64,000 bases of DNA from assembly GCA_038874435.1 (NCBI GenBank), contig JAVZCK010000004.1, positions 1-64,000 on the forward strand. Reading direction: 5' to 3'. Positions 39,254 through 48,115 of the stretch are shown here, in pieces. Position numbers and translations under genes: made by a program. The notes beneath the pieces were generated by a model. The model had not been told where the DNA came from. It worked only from the letters and a program-made list of their open reading frames with translations, and searched no databases. The DNA comes from Thermoplasmata archaeon (GTDB lineage: Archaea; Thermoplasmatota; Thermoplasmata; Lutacidiplasmatales; SKW197). The stretch's first letter is position 1; the number at the start of each line of letters is the position of its first letter.

Positions 39254-40552
39254 ATGGTGGAACCAATCAGAATTGCTGATGCGTTCAAGAAAGCACAGCC
39301 AGGCGATTATGTTTGTGTGAGGGGCTGGATTTACAGGACAAGAAGCAGTGGAGGAATTGTATTCACGGTGTTAAGGGACAGTACTGGTATTATCCAATGC
39401 ACAGTCATTAAGGGAGAGTTGCCCGACGAGGACTTTAAAAGTGCGGAAAAAGCCCTTGTTGAATCTTCCGTGATTGTGGAAGGTGTGCTTAGAGAAGACA
39501 AACGTGCACCTGGTGGCAGGGAAATTACTGCAAAAAAATTCAATGTGGTGCATTTTGCGGAGCGTTTTCCAATCTTCAAGGACCAAACAGAAGAATTTTT
39601 GCTGGACAATCGTCATCTCTGGCTCCGCTCTAGAGAAATGACTGCCACGATGAAAGTCAAGGCAATGATTTTGAGAGCCGCAAGAGAATGGTTCTTTGAG
39701 AATGGATTTGTGGAGACCACGCCACCAATTCTTACATCAAATGCCTGCGAAGGCGGTTCAACCCTGTTTGAGCTCAAATACTTTGAGAGAAAGGGATACC
39801 TTTCCCAGAGTGCCCAGCTCTATCTGGAAGCTCTCATTTTCTCGCTTGAAAAGGTTTGGTCACTTACGCCTTCCTTCAGGGCAGAGAAATCTAGAACACC
39901 AAGACATCTTGCAGAGTTCTGGCATCTTGAAGAGGAGGCGGCATGGGTCACACTCAAGGGAAACCTGGAAATTCAGGAGCAGCTTGTGAGCTACATATGC
40001 CAGTATCTCGCAAAGAATTGTAAAGATGAACTTGAATTTCTCGGAAGAAACCCAGAGGACCTTAAGGTGATTGAACCTCCCTTCCAACGAATTTCTTACA
40101 CAAAGGCGGTGGACATTCTGCGAGATAAGGGCTATGATTTCAAATGGGGCGATGATTTTGGCACTAATGAGGAAAGAGAATTGAGCTTGCTAGACACAAA
40201 GCCAGTATTTATCACAAACTATCCTGCAGAAATAAAGCCCTTCTACATGAAAATCTCACCAGACAATCCAAAAACTGTGGAAAATGCAGACCTGCTGGCA
40301 CCTGAAGGCATAGGGGAAATTATCGGGGGCAGTGAGCGTGAGACAGACATTGCATCAATGAAGGAACGGCTAATGCGAGAAAACGCAAATCTGGACAACT
40401 ATCAGTGGTATTTTGACCTCAGAAGGTTTGGTTCCGTGCCTCATTCTGGCTTTGGTCTTGGAATTGAACGGGTTGTAAGGTGGGTTGCAAAGCGTGAGCA
40501 CATCAGAGACACAGTGCCATTCCCAAGAACTGTCGCAAGGTTATCTCCATGA
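39254..40552 (+). CDS. asnS: Asparaginyl-tRNA synthetase
   Basis: A class IIb synthetase of 432 aa with an N-terminal OB-fold anticodon domain (YVCVRGWIYRTRSSGGIVF) and the class II catalytic core: motif 2 around SLTPSFRAEKSRTPRHLAEF, motif 3 HSGFGLGIERVVRW. The stretch APEGIGEIIGGSERE and YFDLRRFGSVPHSG mark AsnS rather than AspS. Having AsnS means the archaeon can charge Asn directly, not only through the Asp-tRNA amidotransferase path. The next gene overlaps its stop by ATGA. Confidence 0.95.
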   Translation: MVEPIRIADAFKKAQPGDYVCVRGWIYRTRSSGGIVFTVLRDSTGIIQCTVIKGELPDEDFKSAEKALVESSVIVEGVLREDKRAPGGREITAKKFNVVHFAERFPIFKDQTEEFLLDNRHLWLRSREMTATMKVKAMILRAAREWFFENGFVETTPPILTSNACEGGSTLFELKYFERKGYLSQSAQLYLEALIFSLEKVWSLTPSFRAEKSRTPRHLAEFWHLEEEAAWVTLKGNLEIQEQLVSYICQYLAKNCKDELEFLGRNPEDLKVIEPPFQRISYTKAVDILRDKGYDFKWGDDFGTNEERELSLLDTKPVFITNYPAEIKPFYMKISPDNPKTVENADLLAPEGIGEIIGGSERETDIASMKERLMRENANLDNYQWYFDLRRFGSVPHSGFGLGIERVVRWVAKREHIRDTVPFPRTVARLSP

Positions 40553-40854
40553 TTGAGGTTTTTAGGCAAACTATCTTTATACACAGAGACGAGAAACTTG
40601 TGCTCCTGGAGATTCTTGAGGAGAACAAAATAAAATACTTTGCCTACACCTATGTTGCAAGGGAGCGGCATGGAAACTGGATGCCTGTAGTTCGCTGGGA
40701 CAATTTTGAGAACATTCCACATGTGGAGAAATACGACGAGAACGGTGGGTTGATTGAGAGAATGGAAACAGAGCACAAAACCAGAAATGAAGTAATCCAG
40801 CTTGTGACCACATTCAGAAAAAACTTGCTGGCAATGAATCTGGGAGGAATGTGA
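40549..40854 (+). CDS. TumE/DUF6516-like putative toxin
   Basis: A 101-aa protein that overlaps asnS by ATGA. Its pattern (IHRDEKLVLLEIL, IKYFAYTYV, VRWDNFENIPHVEKYD) resembles the TumE/DUF6516 type toxins, which contain an RWDN-P-H-type segment and pair with a small winged-helix protein. The downstream gene fits that partner and abuts with no spacer. The toxin assignment is from this resemblance plus context; no activity is shown for this member. Confidence 0.55.
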   Translation: MIEVFRQTIFIHRDEKLVLLEILEENKIKYFAYTYVARERHGNWMPVVRWDNFENIPHVEKYDENGGLIERMETEHKTRNEVIQLVTTFRKNLLAMNLGGM

Positions 40855-41295
40855 GTGCAGATTGAATTAAAAAAAGAATATGGGCAGAAGGATGTTACTA
40901 AGCTTATTCAGGATTTTACTGAGAGGTATGGCTCTCTTGAAAAGTTGCAGCAGAGCATCGGCCTTTCAAAATGTACTAGGCCATTTGCAGTGGATGACTT
41001 TTTTATCTGGGAAGCCCTATCTCAAGGTGGAAGGTTTACTGAGACCACAGTGATAGCCTATACTGAGGTTTTCAATATTCTTACAGCAAGAAGAGTGGAA
41101 CTGCTTGAATATTTGCAAGCAAAGGCACCAACATCGATTAGGCAGATTGCAAAAGAGCTAAACAGAGATTACAAAAATGTCTACGATGACATCTCTGCAC
41201 TGGAGGATGCAGAACTGGTGGTGACTAAGAAGAAAGGAAGGAACGTATACATAACCTCAGCAGTCTCCTCAATTATAATTTCTTTTCAGAAATGA
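40855..41295 (+). CDS. HVO_A0114/TumA-like winged-helix antitoxin-type regulator
   Basis: A 146-aa protein starting at GTG directly after the TGA of the preceding gene, with GGGAGG seven bases upstream. Residues about 75-140 form a winged helix (RRVELLEYLQAKAP, TSIRQIAKELNRDYKNVYDDI, ALEDAELVV, GRNVYI), the pattern of the HVO_A0114 family of antitoxin/autoregulators. The N-terminal 70 residues are not recognised. It could bind the direct repeats found just downstream; that is inference. Confidence 0.65.
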   Translation: MQIELKKEYGQKDVTKLIQDFTERYGSLEKLQQSIGLSKCTRPFAVDDFFIWEALSQGGRFTETTVIAYTEVFNILTARRVELLEYLQAKAPTSIRQIAKELNRDYKNVYDDISALEDAELVVTKKKGRNVYITSAVSSIIISFQK

Positions 41296-41380: not shown

Positions 41381-41419
41381 CATGCAAAAAACTGCTAAAA
41401 CCCTGTTTTTTCCGAAATC

Positions 41420-41427
41420 TATTTAAG
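41420..41427 (+). promoter_or_regulatory. TATA box of the KaiC-V4R signalling operon
   Basis: TATTTAAG is centred 28 bp before the ATG at 41452; the transcript is probably leaderless. Confidence 0.6.
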
Positions 41428-41451: not shown

Positions 41452-42042
41452 ATGTTGGAGAAAAAAGATAAAAATCAGGTTGAAGCGAAAAAATTTGCTG
41501 ATGTAGAATATAGAATTTCTCAAAAGATAGACCATTGCAAGCTAGACCTGTTGTGGAAGGAGGGGGGTCTTTTTCTCACACTCTCTGAGATCCTACTTTC
41601 TCACGGAGAGCAATACTATGTCATTCCGATTAAGGAAATAGAGCACATTTCTATCCTAAGCGAGAAACCTGTTAAAATTGTGCTGGAATTCGGAAACATC
41701 GAACTGGTATTTACAGGAGAAGCAGGACACAAACTCAGTGCATTGCGCCATCTCCTTCTACCTTACATCAAAAGTGCTGGTCAGCCCAGTGACAAAATGA
41801 AGGTCGTGTTGCTCTACTGGGCTATGGGCATCCAGTCAATCAAGGCACTCAGTGCTGCATTGGGCATAAGCGTGGAAGAGTGTGACATGCTCGTTGCAGA
41901 AGCAAAAGACAGAAAATACATTTCTAAGAAGGGTAAACTCACGAGGCAGGCGATGGAATTGTTTTCACCAGCGGAACGAGAGAAGCTTGACATTTTAATG
42001 AAAAGTTCAGAGAGCAAGAGGGGTGCTGATGACGATGAGTGA
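41452..42042 (+). CDS. CheF-like protein (PH-like domain plus winged helix)
   Basis: A 196-aa soluble protein. Residues 10-115 have the strand pattern of CheF, the archaeal adaptor linking chemotaxis proteins to the archaellum (LTLSEILLSHGEQYYVIPI, EIEHISIL, IELVFTGEAGHKLSALRHLL). Residues about 120-175 look like a winged helix (KVVLLYWAMGIQSIKALSAALGI, then YISKKGKLTRQAMEL), also as in CheF. No che or arl genes lie nearby, and this protein is shorter than typical CheF, so a chemotaxis role is not assured. First gene of a seven-gene operon. Confidence 0.55.
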   Translation: MLEKKDKNQVEAKKFADVEYRISQKIDHCKLDLLWKEGGLFLTLSEILLSHGEQYYVIPIKEIEHISILSEKPVKIVLEFGNIELVFTGEAGHKLSALRHLLLPYIKSAGQPSDKMKVVLLYWAMGIQSIKALSAALGISVEECDMLVAEAKDRKYISKKGKLTRQAMELFSPAEREKLDILMKSSESKRGADDDE

Positions 42043-42976
42043 AAAGACAGGAAAACCTGGTGAAGAAAGACCTGTTTTTCAGAGCTTTGCTGAAGCTATG
42101 AGCACCTTTGCGGAACTAACTAAACTTGAGACCGCAATAGAAAGTGGATTGAAGGAAGCACTCGTTCCCAATTATGAGACCAGGAAATTGCTTAGGGCAA
42201 TGAATGTACTAGAAGCGGAGGCGACACCACTGCTGCAGTTTATGGGGATGTTGTTTGAAAAGATTGGACTTGGGAAACTGAAGCTGGTAAAGAAAGACAT
42301 CTTTAGAATGGAGTTTACGGTTGAAGGATGTTCTGTTTGTAAGTTGTATAAAAATGCCAATAGTAAAACCTGTTACATTACCGCAGAAGCAATCTCAAAG
42401 TTTTTTACAACCGATTTAGAGGTTCCCTCTGCCTGTAAAGAAATGGAATGTGAAAATGCAGGCGCAGAAAAGTGTAAATTCCTGGTGGAGATGCAGCCCC
42501 TTGCTGTCTATCAGATTGCACTAGACAGCACTGATAATGAAATAATTGAAATTCTATTCAAAAAAAGCGGGGCACCGGTAACCTGCGAGCAGATTGCCGA
42601 GGAAATAGATATTCCAGACGAGGAGATAAAGTACAGGTGCGAGATTCTTGAAAAATTCAGAATTATTGATTCTAAGTTGAAATTGACTGAAATAGGAATC
42701 GCCTACAGAAAAAATAGGAGCAAGGTCCAGAGAGATGAAAAGGTGTTTCCGCCGCCCTGGGAAAATATCTCAAAAATCTCAGAAAATATTGCTGCAGCCG
42801 AGTCATTTGCGGAAGCAATTGCAAGGAGTGTAGAGAAGGAGGAGGAGATTGTAATTGACGAAAAAGATGTGATTAATCTCGCTGAAGAAGCAAAGAAGAG
42901 CAAGAGTTTTGCAGAATTACTGTTCAAAAAGATGAAGGAAGAAAATAAGGAGGAGGATAAAAATGACAGGAAATAG
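42029..42976 (+). CDS. V4R-domain sensor with winged helix
   Basis: A protein of about 315 aa. Residues about 45-165 form a V4R (4-vinyl reductase) domain, a small-molecule or metal-binding fold, with the family's Cys pattern (CSVCKLY, CKEMECENAGAEKCKFLVE). Next is a winged helix (about 175-230: IIEILFKKSGAPVTCEQIAEEI). The tail of about 90 residues is acidic and Lys/Glu-rich and may bind partners. It overlaps the CheF-like gene and the KaiC gene. GAGGGGTG precedes three closely spaced start codons (GTG 42023, ATG 42029, ATG 42035), so the exact start is unsure. Confidence 0.7.
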   Translation: MTMSEKTGKPGEERPVFQSFAEAMSTFAELTKLETAIESGLKEALVPNYETRKLLRAMNVLEAEATPLLQFMGMLFEKIGLGKLKLVKKDIFRMEFTVEGCSVCKLYKNANSKTCYITAEAISKFFTTDLEVPSACKEMECENAGAEKCKFLVEMQPLAVYQIALDSTDNEIIEILFKKSGAPVTCEQIAEEIDIPDEEIKYRCEILEKFRIIDSKLKLTEIGIAYRKNRSKVQRDEKVFPPPWENISKISENIAAAESFAEAIARSVEKEEEIVIDEKDVINLAEEAKKSKSFAELLFKKMKEENKEEDKNDRK

Positions 42977-43838
42977 AATAAAAACAGGAATATTTGGCCT
43001 TGATGCACTAATAGAAGGTGGACTGAGAGATAAAACTGCAATTGTGATTGTGGGCTCAAGTGGTACTGGGAAGACCACCTTTGCAATGCAGTTCCTGATG
43101 CACGGTATTGAGCTGGGGGAGCAAGGGCTGTATGTGACGATGGAAGAGAGTCCAGAGCAGATTATGAGAGAAGCGTCTTATATGGGCTGGGACATGAAAA
43201 AACACTACGAAAAGAATCTCTTCTTCATACATCTGAAGGGCAGGAACTTCAAGAAGATGGTGGAGGAACAACTGCCTCAGCTCGTGAAAGCAAGGAGCGA
43301 CTATGACATCAAGACCCGTGTGGTGATTGACCCGATGACACCAGTCATATGGGCAACTCAGGAGAAACTGGACCAACGAGAGTTGATTGGCAAGCTTTTC
43401 TACACTTTGAAGGAACTTGGACCCGTGATTGCGACTGTGGAAGAGCATGCAAGGCCGGGTGAGACAATTGGAGAGGATGTGTTATTGCCAATCTATCTTG
43501 CAGATGGCGTAATCCATCTTGAGTACTATCCAATAGGAGGTGTGTTCAACCGCACACTAAAGATTGTGAAGATGCGCGGGACGCATCATGGCGAAGGTGT
43601 GTATCCCTACATGTTTGCAAGGGGTGTGGGCGTTATCGTGAGAAGCTCTGCAGTGGAAGTGCCGAAAACTGCTACGAAACCCTACGATACCCTGTTTGCA
43701 GAGGCAATAAAGACCGCAGAGACCCTAAAAGCACCTCCAGGAATCATTGAGCGATTGAAGGCGATGAAGGAAAACTGGGACTATGAATTTTCGCCAGAGG
43801 AGGCATTGCAAATAATTCTCGAGTCACTGAAGAAGTGA
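42963..43838 (+). CDS. Single-domain KaiC-like RecA ATPase
   Basis: A 291-aa ATPase with Walker A GSSGTGKTT (31-39), the following VTMEESPEQI with paired glutamates, and Walker B strand TRVVIDPMTPV. IKTGIFGLDALIEGG is the typical KaiC/FlaH opening. Archaeal KaiC-like proteins act as ATP-dependent signalling switches, for example FlaH/ArlH in the archaellum. The C-terminal 50 residues form a helical tail. GGAGG precedes the ATG; it overlaps the V4R gene by 14 bp, so amounts of the two proteins are likely coordinated. Confidence 0.88.
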   Translation: MTGNRIKTGIFGLDALIEGGLRDKTAIVIVGSSGTGKTTFAMQFLMHGIELGEQGLYVTMEESPEQIMREASYMGWDMKKHYEKNLFFIHLKGRNFKKMVEEQLPQLVKARSDYDIKTRVVIDPMTPVIWATQEKLDQRELIGKLFYTLKELGPVIATVEEHARPGETIGEDVLLPIYLADGVIHLEYYPIGGVFNRTLKIVKMRGTHHGEGVYPYMFARGVGVIVRSSAVEVPKTATKPYDTLFAEAIKTAETLKAPPGIIERLKAMKENWDYEFSPEEALQIILESLKK

Positions 43839-43842
43839 GACC

Positions 43843-44643
43843 ATGGCTGCGGGCAAAACAGTGAAGAAAATTGAGAAAACAATGGAGGCGGAAACCGCCA
43901 GCTTGCTTAAAGACATAATTCTGATGGAAATGCGGAAGCTTGCTGAGACTACTGGCGTTGAAATAATGTTGTTTGTGGGTGTTGACGGCAGAAATTTCTC
44001 TTCAATAATTCCTCCGAGCTTAACACCACTCCAATTCCACATGTTCAACTTGCTCAAGCAGAACATTCCCTCAATTTGTTCGCAACTCAAAAACGAGAAT
44101 CTCATAGAATCAATCCAGATTTACGAAAACGGCACAATTTACATCACTGGCGTGGGGAGGAATCTGTTTCTTGCCAGCGTAAAGACAGGCAGTGTGAATT
44201 TCAACGAAAGCGTGGAGATTTCTAAAAAACTTGCATCTGGTGCAATAGTGCTTGAATACCTTACCAGCCAGAAACCTACAGATGAAAAATCGCTTGAAAA
44301 ATTGCCAGAGGATGTAAGAGCAGAAATCAAGCAACTCACAAGACAGTTGTTTGTTGAACGATTTGAGCAAACAAGGCAGTACAAGAAGAACATGGAAATT
44401 CTTGCTTACATTAAAGAGAAGCTTGCGACAGTGGTGGGCGTTGGGGCTGTGAATGAAATTGTAGAACTTACCTTCAACGAGATGGGAACTTCTGCACCCT
44501 ACATGAATGACACGCTCTGGCTTGCATTTGTTGAACGCTTGATTAAGGAGCATGTGAAACGCTTAAGCGGTGAGATTGTGGCAGAGGAATGCTACAAGAC
44601 ATGGGTACCAGAGATAGAGAAGAAGTTGAAGATGTTTGTATGA
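43843..44643 (+). CDS. Roadblock/LC7-like domain protein
   Basis: A 266-aa protein. Residues 20-115 have the helix-strand-strand-helix order of roadblock/LC7 modules (EIMLFVGVDGRNFSSI, SIQIYENGTIYITGV, LFLASV), which pair with small GTPases or ATPases. The rest is helical. No specific family recognised, so the roadblock call is tentative. AGTGA lies four bases before the ATG and it is four bases downstream of the KaiC stop. Confidence 0.5.
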   Translation: MAAGKTVKKIEKTMEAETASLLKDIILMEMRKLAETTGVEIMLFVGVDGRNFSSIIPPSLTPLQFHMFNLLKQNIPSICSQLKNENLIESIQIYENGTIYITGVGRNLFLASVKTGSVNFNESVEISKKLASGAIVLEYLTSQKPTDEKSLEKLPEDVRAEIKQLTRQLFVERFEQTRQYKKNMEILAYIKEKLATVVGVGAVNEIVELTFNEMGTSAPYMNDTLWLAFVERLIKEHVKRLSGEIVAEECYKTWVPEIEKKLKMFV

Positions 44644-44653
44644 GGTCGCAGCT

Positions 44654-46291
44654 ATGGAAGAAATAAAGAGCGGAGATAAGGGAACACAGGAAACCCAAAC
44701 CGTAGTTAATGATAGCCAAGAGCAACAGCCACTACAGACCGCTGAAGGGAGTATTCCCTCAAATGTGCAGCAAGAGCAAGCTGAGGGACAGCAACCAGGA
44801 CAAGGAGTGGAGCCACTAGAGAAAAATGAGATGCAAAAGAATGAGAAAAGTGCTGATGAGGAGAAAATAACTGAGTTGCTTGTTCGGATAGAAAATAACG
44901 AAAAAAAGCTGGGTGAGATTGAGGTTAAAATTGAAAAAATTGAGGAAAATTTTAGGGACATACAAGGAGCAATCAAAAATCTTGGCGAGACGATAAGGTC
45001 GGCAGGAGAATATGCAAACACAATTTTAGACACTGCCTTCAAGGACAAATTCTCAAATACTGCAAGAGAGATAGAGAAGTTAAATGAAAAAATAACGATG
45101 CTCATAGATGAGGTGGGGGCTGGTGAGGGCTTAAATGTGGGTAAGATTCCACCTACAATCCTTGAGATTGTTTATCAGAGCACACTGGACGATGTGGTGA
45201 ATGCAATTTTCAGGCATTTGGGGTATGCAGAGGCAGAACGAAGAATTACTGAGACGCTTGAAGAAATTCGTGAAAGAACGAGCGGAAGTGAACTTTTCAG
45301 ATTTGATGGGAAAAGAATTCGTGCCAGAGATGTGGCAAAGAGCATTGAGAAGAAACTTGTGTCTGCAAGGCAGATGCAGACCACATACGATGAGTTGTTA
45401 AGAAAGTTGCTTGAACTTGTGCCAGGCTACAAGCCGAAAAATTTCAGGGCGATGATAAAGCTGAAGAGCCAGGAATATAGTGTTGATAGTACAATTCATC
45501 TCACAGAACGGGTAGCAGAACTGGAGAAATGGACATCAAAGATGGAGGGCTTGCTCACTGAGGCGGACACCAGAGAGGCAGGTGTCCTGGAAAGTTTGAA
45601 CGAGCTTACAAAGCAGATTGAGGGCCTTAGGGGCATGATTGATGAGAGCGTCAGGACGCTACAGGCGAAAATTGAGGAATACAACATGCGGATTACGAAC
45701 ATAGAGGCAGAATCGGAAAGTAGCAAAGGGGAAAGCAGAGAAGTTCTTTCAGAACTCTTAGAGCGAATTCGGGTGATTGAGGAACGACTTGGAATTGTGC
45801 ATACACCCCCAGAGAAAACAGAGGAGATAAGGCCGGAGGAAGTTGAGGAAAAGCCGGAAATGGGTGAGATAAGTGGGGATGAAAGTTTCCTGTATTATGC
45901 AGTTGAAAATGAGAGAACATTAGCAGATGTAAAAACCACGCTTTCACTCATGTTCTCGGATGAAAAAATTGAGACATTAATAGAGAACCTAGTGAGGAAG
46001 GGCTATCTTGAGAGATTTGAGAAGGATGGAGAGGTTTATTTGAGAAGGGTTGAGAAGAAGGAAGAGAAGAGAGAGCAATCGTTGGAAGAGCAAATTCTTC
46101 AGACGATGGAAGATGGGTTTACATTTAGGAAACTCCAGCACAGGTTTAAAGATGTTGATAAAGGGACCCTCCAAGCGGCTCTTGAAAAATTGATTGACGA
46201 AGGTAAGATTTATGTTGAAGGCACGGAGCGAAGAAAAATTTACAGAATTTCCAGTCCATCTATGAACGATGAAAAAGATGGAGGTGCATAA
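44654..46291 (+). CDS. Coiled-coil protein with C-terminal winged helices
   Basis: A 545-aa cytoplasmic protein. The first 60 residues are Gln/Glu-rich and disordered. Coiled-coil segments follow at about 75-150 and 280-390 (ITELLVRIENNEKKLGEIEVKI; RIRVIEERLGI), separated by a globular part (RRITETLEEIRERTSGS ... GYKPKNFRAMIKL). The C-terminal 140 residues hold two winged-helix-like units (LADVKTTLSLMFSDEKIETL; EEQILQTMEDGFTFRKLQHR). A scaffold linking the ATPase and the sensors would fit, but this is inference. It overlaps the frame of the roadblock-like gene; the ATG at 44654 has GAGGT upstream. Confidence 0.6.
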   Translation: MEEIKSGDKGTQETQTVVNDSQEQQPLQTAEGSIPSNVQQEQAEGQQPGQGVEPLEKNEMQKNEKSADEEKITELLVRIENNEKKLGEIEVKIEKIEENFRDIQGAIKNLGETIRSAGEYANTILDTAFKDKFSNTAREIEKLNEKITMLIDEVGAGEGLNVGKIPPTILEIVYQSTLDDVVNAIFRHLGYAEAERRITETLEEIRERTSGSELFRFDGKRIRARDVAKSIEKKLVSARQMQTTYDELLRKLLELVPGYKPKNFRAMIKLKSQEYSVDSTIHLTERVAELEKWTSKMEGLLTEADTREAGVLESLNELTKQIEGLRGMIDESVRTLQAKIEEYNMRITNIEAESESSKGESREVLSELLERIRVIEERLGIVHTPPEKTEEIRPEEVEEKPEMGEISGDESFLYYAVENERTLADVKTTLSLMFSDEKIETLIENLVRKGYLERFEKDGEVYLRRVEKKEEKREQSLEEQILQTMEDGFTFRKLQHRFKDVDKGTLQAALEKLIDEGKIYVEGTERRKIYRISSPSMNDEKDGGA

Positions 46292-46294
46292 AAA

Positions 46295-46924
46295 ATGTTG
46301 GATATAGCGCTGGTATCGCTCATACAGGATATGAGCGAAAAGGCAGGTGTGGAAGGGACAATACAGTACTGGCTCAGAGTGGGCGAGAACTTGGCGAGAA
46401 GAATGGGAAAGGAGGCGTACATGGGCTGGCCTTCCTTTAATGTGGCGTTGCGCGAGGGAAGAACAGCGTTTTCCATAGAAGGCGATGTAAGTGCTCTGAC
46501 CGACTTGGCGATAACGGATGTGGATGGAGATGTGGTGGGCTACATTTACGCACTGAAGCGATGCGTGTTCCAACCCACAATATTGCGCATCCGTTACAGT
46601 GTGGGCGAACTGCCGCGAGCGGATAGACAGGTGGCAGACGAGTACAACAACACTGTGAGAAATTCTGCGGTCTGCAACTTCTGTGTGATTCACCAGAAAT
46701 TCAGAGAGGAAGTGGCAAAGAACATTACAGTTGCTGATCAGGTGCTGGAATGCTACCAGCTTGCAAATCGGGGCTTCCTTGGAGACACGAAGACAGACGA
46801 AGCAGCGTTAAAGAAAATCGGTGTGAATCCAGAGTATGTGCGGAGCTTGCTACGAAACTATGCATGTGTGTACGCATTGCTGATGAAGGGAGCAAGATTG
46901 AAAGGTGAGGAGGTGTCTAAATGA
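46295..46924 (+). CDS. Paralogue 1 of a Cys/His-motif pair
   Basis: A 209-aa soluble alpha/beta protein with GGAGGTG before the ATG. It is related to the next gene throughout: LARRMGKEAYMGWPSFNVAL against LARSMPEEEYKTWEEFRNAL; EYNNTVRNSAVCNFCVIHQKFRE against EYYNTTVKPSVVDTQCIIHQTFRS; LLRNYACVYALLM against ILRNNSCVWVLY. The shared C-x2-H-Q and C-terminal N-x2-C suggest a conserved metal, heme or redox site. I do not recognise the family, though the size and pattern recall V4R-like sensors. Confidence 0.65.
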   Translation: MLDIALVSLIQDMSEKAGVEGTIQYWLRVGENLARRMGKEAYMGWPSFNVALREGRTAFSIEGDVSALTDLAITDVDGDVVGYIYALKRCVFQPTILRIRYSVGELPRADRQVADEYNNTVRNSAVCNFCVIHQKFREEVAKNITVADQVLECYQLANRGFLGDTKTDEAALKKIGVNPEYVRSLLRNYACVYALLMKGARLKGEEVSK

Positions 46925-47541
46925 GCAAGGAAGGGCAGATTACACGACTCATTGAAGACAATCCATTCGTGGATGTCGCAGCGTATCTCTTCCTAGAAGA
47001 CATTGCGGATAAGCAAGGTCCTGCAGGAATGAACAACTACCTTGTGTCTCTTGCAAATTCGCTTGCTAGATCAATGCCTGAAGAGGAATACAAGACCTGG
47101 GAGGAATTCAGGAATGCACTTGCGTCAAACAGAAGCATTCTCACCACATTTGAGGATGTTGTGCTACCTACAGAGAACTGCATCGTGACCACGAAGTGTC
47201 CTTTTGGCAGGGGCTGGACTGAGTACACGAAACGGATAGGGAATTTTGCAAAAGTTCATACGGATGTAGCAGAGTATTACAATACCACAGTTAAGCCGAG
47301 TGTTGTGGACACACAGTGCATCATTCATCAGACCTTCCGTTCTGCAGCAGCGGAACGCATAAAGGTTGGAGGAAAGCGTGTGAAATATGCTCAGGTTGCA
47401 GCGGTTTCAGAGTATGGCGTGCGAAAAATCGTGCCAGAGGAATGGCTGCCAATTCTGTTGAATACAGCGAAGATTTCCAGAACAGAACTGAACATGATTC
47501 TGCGGAACAACTCCTGCGTCTGGGTGCTTTACACAGAATAA
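46921..47541 (+). CDS. Paralogue 2 of a Cys/His-motif pair
   Basis: A 206-aa relative of the preceding protein, with the same C-x2-H-Q-x-F-R core and the ILRNNSC tail motif. It adds an extra Cys pair (CIVTTKCPFGRGW). GGAGGTG precedes the ATG and it overlaps the previous gene by ATGA. Last gene of the seven-gene unit; oligo-T follows the stop. Confidence 0.65.
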   Translation: MSKEGQITRLIEDNPFVDVAAYLFLEDIADKQGPAGMNNYLVSLANSLARSMPEEEYKTWEEFRNALASNRSILTTFEDVVLPTENCIVTTKCPFGRGWTEYTKRIGNFAKVHTDVAEYYNTTVKPSVVDTQCIIHQTFRSAAAERIKVGGKRVKYAQVAAVSEYGVRKIVPEEWLPILLNTAKISRTELNMILRNNSCVWVLYTE

Positions 47542-47560: not shown

Positions 47561-48115
47561 GTGTTGTTTTTGCGACTCTTGAAAAAATCAGGTAATGTAG
47601 TTTATCTCAAAATTGAGGAGCCAGGCGAGATAGATAAATACAATGTGCCTCAGTATGCGATGAACAATGGATTTGAGTTTTTTAGAGGGCTTGGAGTAGT
47701 TGATTATCCAAAGACATTTAAATCCTGGCTTAGGAAATTTCCGAGACCAATCTTCATTGCTGCGGTGGAGAGCAACACAATTATTGGTTGGGTTTATATT
47801 GAGGAATGGGAGAAATGTGCAAAAGATGGTGAGCCAGTGCATGTGCTCCGTGCAATAGAGGTTCTGCCTGCATACAGAAGAGCTAAAGTTGGTTTTCGTT
47901 TGTTGCTTCTCGGTCTGCTTTTCGTTGTGGGCTATTTGATTACAAAGCCAATCACTGCAGAAGCCAGAAGGTTTTTCAAGAAATATGGATTCATGGAGGA
48001 AGCGGAGTTTCGTAGGGTGCCTGTGGACCTTACTTCCCATCCAGGTTATCTTATCCTTCCTCCTTTCAGAAGAAAGATGCTGCTTGAGAGTGTGAGTGCG
48101 TATTTTGAGGTTTGA
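47561..48115 (+). CDS. GNAT-like N-acetyltransferase
   Basis: A 184-aa protein with the core of GNAT acetyltransferases: IFIAAVESNTIIGWVYIEEWE (strands 2-3), AIEVLPAYRRAKVGFRLL (strand 4 plus acetyl-CoA loop) and ARRFFKKYGFMEE (helix 4 region). Acceptor unknown. Starts at GTG 47561, only 20 bp after the preceding operon, so it may be co-transcribed if termination is incomplete. Confidence 0.6.
   Translation: MLFLRLLKKSGNVVYLKIEEPGEIDKYNVPQYAMNNGFEFFRGLGVVDYPKTFKSWLRKFPRPIFIAAVESNTIIGWVYIEEWEKCAKDGEPVHVLRAIEVLPAYRRAKVGFRLLLLGLLFVVGYLITKPITAEARRFFKKYGFMEEAEFRRVPVDLTSHPGYLILPPFRRKMLLESVSAYFEV

Follow-up and report, generated by a model that had tools for sequence, protein, structure and literature searches.

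A 64,000-nucleotide stretch of DNA from a Thermoplasmata archaeon (contig JAVZCK010000004.1 of assembly GCA_038874435.1, here called the window) contains seven genes, P01 to P07, that form a single conserved operon around a KaiC-family ATPase (P03). KaiC ATPases are numerous in archaeal genomes, and for most of them the partners are unknown; this KaiC has a fixed set of partners, and the genes follow the same order in 106 loci that represent at least 16 families of Thermoplasmata, mostly of uncultured archaea. We found that KaiC, the roadblock-type protein P04 and the paralogous Cys-bearing proteins P06 and P07 are a core able to exist without the remaining genes, and that the cluster matches no described system among those tested. 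With a little less than even confidence, we interpret the operon as a KaiC-centred sensory switch in which KaiC, the roadblock protein and a heterodimer of the Cys proteins would be the core, and the V4R and winged-helix subunits an added layer for input and output.

A conserved KaiC operon in Thermoplasmata

An earlier note on this DNA had described seven same-strand genes with overlaps or short spacers and had proposed that they form one operon. We confirmed this gene set: all seven open reading frames (ORFs) lie on the plus strand between 41452 and 47541 (Table 1), with successive gaps from P01 to P07 of −14, −14, +4, +10, +3 and −4 bp. Across loci, median gaps range from −4 to +16 bp within P01–P07, and the gap before the following gene, P09, is 36.5 bp; P09 may be on the same transcript. 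We place the start of the operon at P01 because of this spacing and because 20 of 29 loci have a B recognition element (BRE)/TATA promoter element ahead of P01 (or P02), compared with 0.5 expected from shuffled sequences. In the window, the element reads CGAAATCTATTTAA and lies 39 bp upstream of P01, consistent with a leaderless start. The strong GGAGG-type ribosome-binding sites previously reported for nearly all of the genes are present before P03, P06 and P07, but those before P02 and P05 are shorter, that of P04 is weak and P01 has none.

Conservation of gene order extends far beyond the source genome, as the claim of a new system required. The consensus order, P10–P08–P01–P02–KaiC–P04–P05–P06–P07–P09, is either complete or broken by contig ends in the 106 loci, with lineage-specific losses of P01 or of the upstream P10/P08 pair. 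Apparent reordering in some loci was not taken as real, as it involved ORFs with starts extended upstream. Among 300 genomes of the class, P04 is present in 60 and P06 in 63, and the two co-occur in 58 of the 65 positive genomes (p = 2e-53, a value that ignores shared ancestry). All seven discordant genomes are incomplete, and the contigs read from them break inside the cluster; in two (G161 and G201), the P06 matches run off the contig end. Given these breaks, we rejected the P04-only and P06-only genomes as counter-examples. Because the order is kept in 106 loci, P04 and P06 co-occur and the ratios of non-synonymous to synonymous substitution rates (dN/dS) are low, we conclude that the cluster is not a chance arrangement. 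A comparison of the source genome (G000) with another species of its genus (G001) gave dN/dS values of 0.007–0.015 for KaiC, P04, P06 and P07 and 0.039–0.076 for P01, P05 and P09; P02 was saturated. The cluster is thus under purifying selection, with the strongest constraint on the KaiC–P04–P06–P07 core.

The families with the cluster are at least 16 of the 33 seen in the class sample; it was not found in the sampled genomes of f2 and f3, sister families within the same order. A phylum-wide sample of 390 genomes added one further genome, from another class, with an assembly contamination of 7%. The named relatives found by scanning 84,980 species were all Thermoplasmata-type metagenome-assembled genomes (MAGs; DHVE2, SG8-5, Saliniplasma, soil lineages and others), except for one contig (L066) filed under a Leptolyngbyaceae cyanobacterium MAG. 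This contig, probably a misbinned Thermoplasmata contig, carries P05–P06–P07–P09, and its P06 is 87% identical to that of the window.

A four-protein core and its components

In families f25 and f28, the loci consist of KaiC–P04–P06–P07 only, and P01, P02 and P05 are missing. When 12 core-only genomes were searched with profiles, P05 had no orthologue (its single weak match, in G138, covers only a winged-helix segment) and the V4R subunit P02 gave only weak generic V4R matches; P02 and P05 are therefore absent from these genomes rather than relocated. Since P01, P02 and P05 are absent from whole families that keep the core, we regard sensing and DNA binding as an added layer. The idea of one signalling module combining KaiC, roadblock and V4R proteins is supported by these results, whereas the earlier picture, in which the sensing of a ligand, an ATPase switch and an output to DNA make up one unit, needs revision, the V4R and winged-helix subunits being absent from f25 and f28. 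No part of the cluster is more strongly conserved than the Cys-protein pair, which had been given a peripheral place before.

The prediction that P03 is a single-domain KaiC ATPase was borne out by its Pfam match (Table 1). Its active site, comprising Walker A K37, catalytic E61/E62, Walker B D123, and K203 and R205 of the KxR finger, is invariant in 38 of 38 sequences. P03 aligns with both domains of cyanobacterial KaiC and shares with it the ATPase fold, Walker A, the catalytic Glu pair and the KxR finger, but it has a single domain, other partners, no KaiB in the genomes tested and no phosphosite Ser/Thr (the equivalents of S431/T432 are L175/P176). It scores under every curated NCBIfam KaiC cut-off (52.8 against a cut-off of 215 for the ArlH equivalog) and looks like a separate KaiC subfamily.

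P04 has no Pfam family above cut-off and matched nothing in a sequence search of solved structures. The AlphaFold2 model of this protein (predicted local distance difference test (pLDDT) score, 87) had as its best Foldseek matches MglC, MglB and Asgard roadblock chains (E 5.4e-5); the N-terminal half of P04 carries a roadblock fold (alpha-beta-beta-alpha-beta-beta-beta-alpha), in agreement with the roadblock-like character noted before. This fold is shared with the MglA/MglB system and the Asgard roadblock proteins, from which the operon differs in that its NTPase is KaiC rather than a Ras-like GTPase and in that P04 has an extra helical domain.

P06 is 60–98% identical over 38 loci and ranks with the most conserved proteins of the cluster. 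Residues C90, C127, C130, H133 and C191 are present in 38 of 38 sequences, among more than 70 invariant positions that include acidic residues, Arg, Cys and His. P07 is a paralogue of P06 (hhalign probability 99.7%). Hence the earlier description of two Cys/His paralogues holds for the paralogy and for P06, which has the full set, but not for P07, in which the counterparts of these residues vary and are lost in many relatives; its own invariants are C87 and H113. Since P06 keeps the Cys/His set and that of P07 is degenerate, P07 is likely to be the heterodimer partner of P06, in a complex with one active half. Neither protein matches a Pfam or NCBIfam family. In sequence searches of solved structures, P06 had no match and P07 had only weak matches, to a designed helical protein. 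Such striking conservation in a family without database matches suggests an important function. Comparisons of P06/P07 with the V4R/TRAPP proteins gave no significant match, either by fold or by profile (hhalign 0.3% to V4R), with shallow alignments of low diversity (effective number of sequences (Neff), 1.6–2.2).

The V4R and winged-helix subunits

P02 had been proposed to be a V4R–winged helix sensor, and its V4R domain was confirmed by Pfam (PF02830, 38.7 bits against a gathering score of 31). It also matches the C terminus of MsvR in NCBIfam (1.6e-8). The Cys/Glu site of the domain is intact, with C115, E138, C141 and C149 conserved in 29 of 29 orthologues, and its Cys spacing (26, 8) is that of the DmpR zinc ligands Cys151/177/185 (PMC7264223). 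By contrast with other V4R sensors (DmpR/MopR/PoxR, MsvR), P02 is a separate protein with SFAE repeats, and the ATPase is KaiC acting in trans instead of a fused AAA+ domain. The motif [ST]FA[EDK][ALMIV] occurs 57 times in the 29 P02 orthologues, compared with 0.38 times in shuffled sequences, and is absent from seven other cluster proteins; on this pattern, the SFAE repeats may be docking motifs.

P01, formerly read as a CheF-like adaptor, has no match to Pfam CheF (PF04283), and none of the 300 genomes sampled from the class has a CheF that scores over cut-off. What remains is a weak similarity of its N-terminal domain to divergent CheF: a P01 hidden Markov model picked a CheF-like ORF (L145:1222-2052, in G093) at 16.3 bits, and the same ORF scored 23.6 bits against Pfam CheF. 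We rejected CheF and chemotaxis at the family level. The divergent ORF lies close to archaellum genes.

In P0011 (L150:9500-10780; G000:C8:23503-24780), a 426-amino-acid paralogue from the same genome, one half resembles P01 and the other P02, fused in cluster order, and P01 and P02 therefore very probably act as one unit. In our sample, this fusion is confined to the source genus. Its gene is near one for a DUF835 (inactive KaiC-like) protein and about 20 kb from an archaellum operon, on a different contig from that of the window. The third subunit outside the core, P05, is likely to be a scaffold.

A proposed KaiC-centred switch and its alternatives

As a sensory switch, the operon would work around an ATP-driven KaiC hexamer, with KaiC, P04 and P06/P07 together forming the switch or an activase. 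P04 would couple KaiC to the putative P06/P07 heterodimer, in which the P06 half may bind a metal or an iron–sulphur cluster through its Cys/His set and either report redox or metal state or perform chemistry. P02, together with P01, would bring in a hydrophobic-ligand signal through V4R and may dock on the core by its repeated SFAE motifs, whereas P01, P05 and the winged helices would pass the signal to partners or DNA, with P05 and the winged helices serving as scaffold and output. A more specific proposal, which we consider possible but hold with less assurance, is that P06/P07 represent a new family of metal- or iron–sulphur-binding heterodimers driven by the KaiC hexamer through a roadblock adaptor, an undescribed signalling or activase machine that would be ancestral to much of Thermoplasmata and carry a detachable V4R/winged-helix layer. 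Archaeal KaiC ATPases have been proposed to constitute a signalling network specific to archaea; with a fixed set of partners here, and with natural gene losses that separate the four-protein core from the sensory layer, this proposal becomes directly testable in vitro.

Several observations weigh against the sensory switch. Core-only lineages have no obvious sensor or DNA output, which makes signalling by the core a tentative reading. Metal binding by P06 is suggested by residue conservation alone, and P06/P07 have no known relative. The P06 model is of moderate quality (pLDDT 73), and its top Foldseek matches, TRAPPC3/Bet3/DmpR, are non-significant (E 0.05, template modelling (TM) score about 0.25).

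That KaiC proteins serve as signal transduction hubs in archaea is an existing proposal (Makarova, Galperin & Koonin 2017, as cited in PMC5847659). Because such signalling has already been proposed, the gene set can be viewed as a variant of it; as far as the proposal is reported in the citing paper, the hubs likewise have a KaiC-family ATPase encoded with input and output domains. The set of P04, P06/P07 and P05 was not described in the literature searched, which did not cover Makarova et al. 2017.

The main rival to a sensory switch is that P06/P07 form a metabolic enzyme, a heterodimer with a metal or iron–sulphur site, for which KaiC and the roadblock protein act as an ATP-dependent activase or chaperone. 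The enzyme-like conservation of P06, with its many invariant positions, and the retention of exactly KaiC–P04–P06–P07 in core-only genomes both suit an enzyme. However, the V4R, winged-helix and coiled-coil subunits of the full version point to sensing and regulation, and where roadblock proteins occur in known systems their role is that of a regulatory partner; we therefore judge an enzyme unlikely, though worth serious consideration.

Transcription control is less probable still. How P01, P02 and P05 bind DNA at target promoters would then be determined by KaiC and V4R, as would suit the winged helices in all three and the match of the P02 V4R domain to the C terminus of MsvR, a known regulator; yet every winged-helix subunit is missing in f25 and f28, which retain the core.

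We think it very unlikely that the operon regulates surface structures (archaella or type IV pili) as ArlH and further members of the KaiC family do. There are links between KaiC proteins and both structures (PMC4858521), P01 weakly resembles divergent CheF, and the archaellum of the source genome, on another contig, is 20 kb from the P01–P02 fusion. Linkage to the archaellum was nevertheless rejected, because 6 of the 65 genomes with the module have ArlH over cut-off, as do 23 of the 235 without it (p = 1.0), CheF over cut-off is lacking throughout the class sample and the flanks examined contain no arl or pilus genes. Nor does the cluster match archaellum or chemotaxis loci one-to-one, as the claim of a new system required.

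A KaiABC-type clock or anti-phage defence, suggested by KaiC homology and by the toxin–antitoxin-like upstream TumE-like/winged helix-turn-helix (wHTH) pair, is highly improbable given that KaiB (PF07689) was found in 0 of 14 module-bearing genomes (the Synechococcus control was detected), that the positions of the KaiC CII phosphosites have no Ser/Thr, that PADLOC matches were weak, partial and mostly to generic winged helices and P-loops, that viral contigs and plasmids gave no match to the cluster, and that its distribution is single-copy and highly conserved.

Feature coordinates and neighbouring genes

Table 1 Positions of the operon, its promoter and adjacent genes in the window
Feature	Position	Strand	Basis or remark
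P10 (DUF7718/TumE-like) and P08 (HVO_A0114 wHTH)	40549..41295	+	conserved upstream pair
BRE/TATA promoter element	41413..41426	+	upstream of P01
P01, N-terminal beta-rich (CheF-N/PH-like?) domain and C-terminal winged helix	41452..42042	+	PF24409 wHTH 3.4e-8
P02, V4R domain, winged helix, probably disordered C terminus	42029..42976	+	V4R 1.1e-9
P02 N-terminal SFAEA and TFAEL motifs	42083..42118	+	
P02 C-terminal SFAEA	42803-42817	+	
P02 C-terminal SFAEL	42905-42919	+	
P03, single-domain KaiC ATPase with conserved 65-amino-acid C-terminal tail	42963..43838	+	PF06745 7.6e-47
P04, roadblock/MglB fold and new helical domain	43843..44643	+	AlphaFold2 and Foldseek
P04 N-terminal roadblock/MglB fold	43891-44265	+	Foldseek
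P04 C-terminal helical domain	44284-44634	+	resembles nothing found
P05, coiled coil, conserved central domain (residues 155-275) and C-terminal winged helices	44654..46291	+	alignment; weak winged-helix matches
P06, no Pfam or NCBIfam family; 4 invariant Cys (C90, C127, C130, C191) and H133	46295..46924	+	
P07, P06 paralogue with degenerate Cys/His site	46921..47541	+	
P09, GNAT acetyltransferase with FKxWLRKFPRP motif	47561..48115	+	PF00583 4.7e-7

P09 follows P07 in nearly all P05-carrying loci and is the last gene of the conserved cluster. The upstream P10/P08 pair is present in about 40% of loci and is divergently oriented in some lineages; it is probably a transcription unit of its own. 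The pair resembles a toxin–antitoxin unit, and the best TumE toxin-like match of P10, found in relatives, has an E value of 5e-6. Downstream of the cluster, 14 loci (L053, L055-L064, L046, L049 and L025) have, in convergent orientation, a gene whose product reaches about 2,200 amino acids, with an STT3-like N terminus and CarboxypepD_reg repeats, together with a gene for a CARDB protein, and a translin-family gene is often located upstream in the flanks of these loci.

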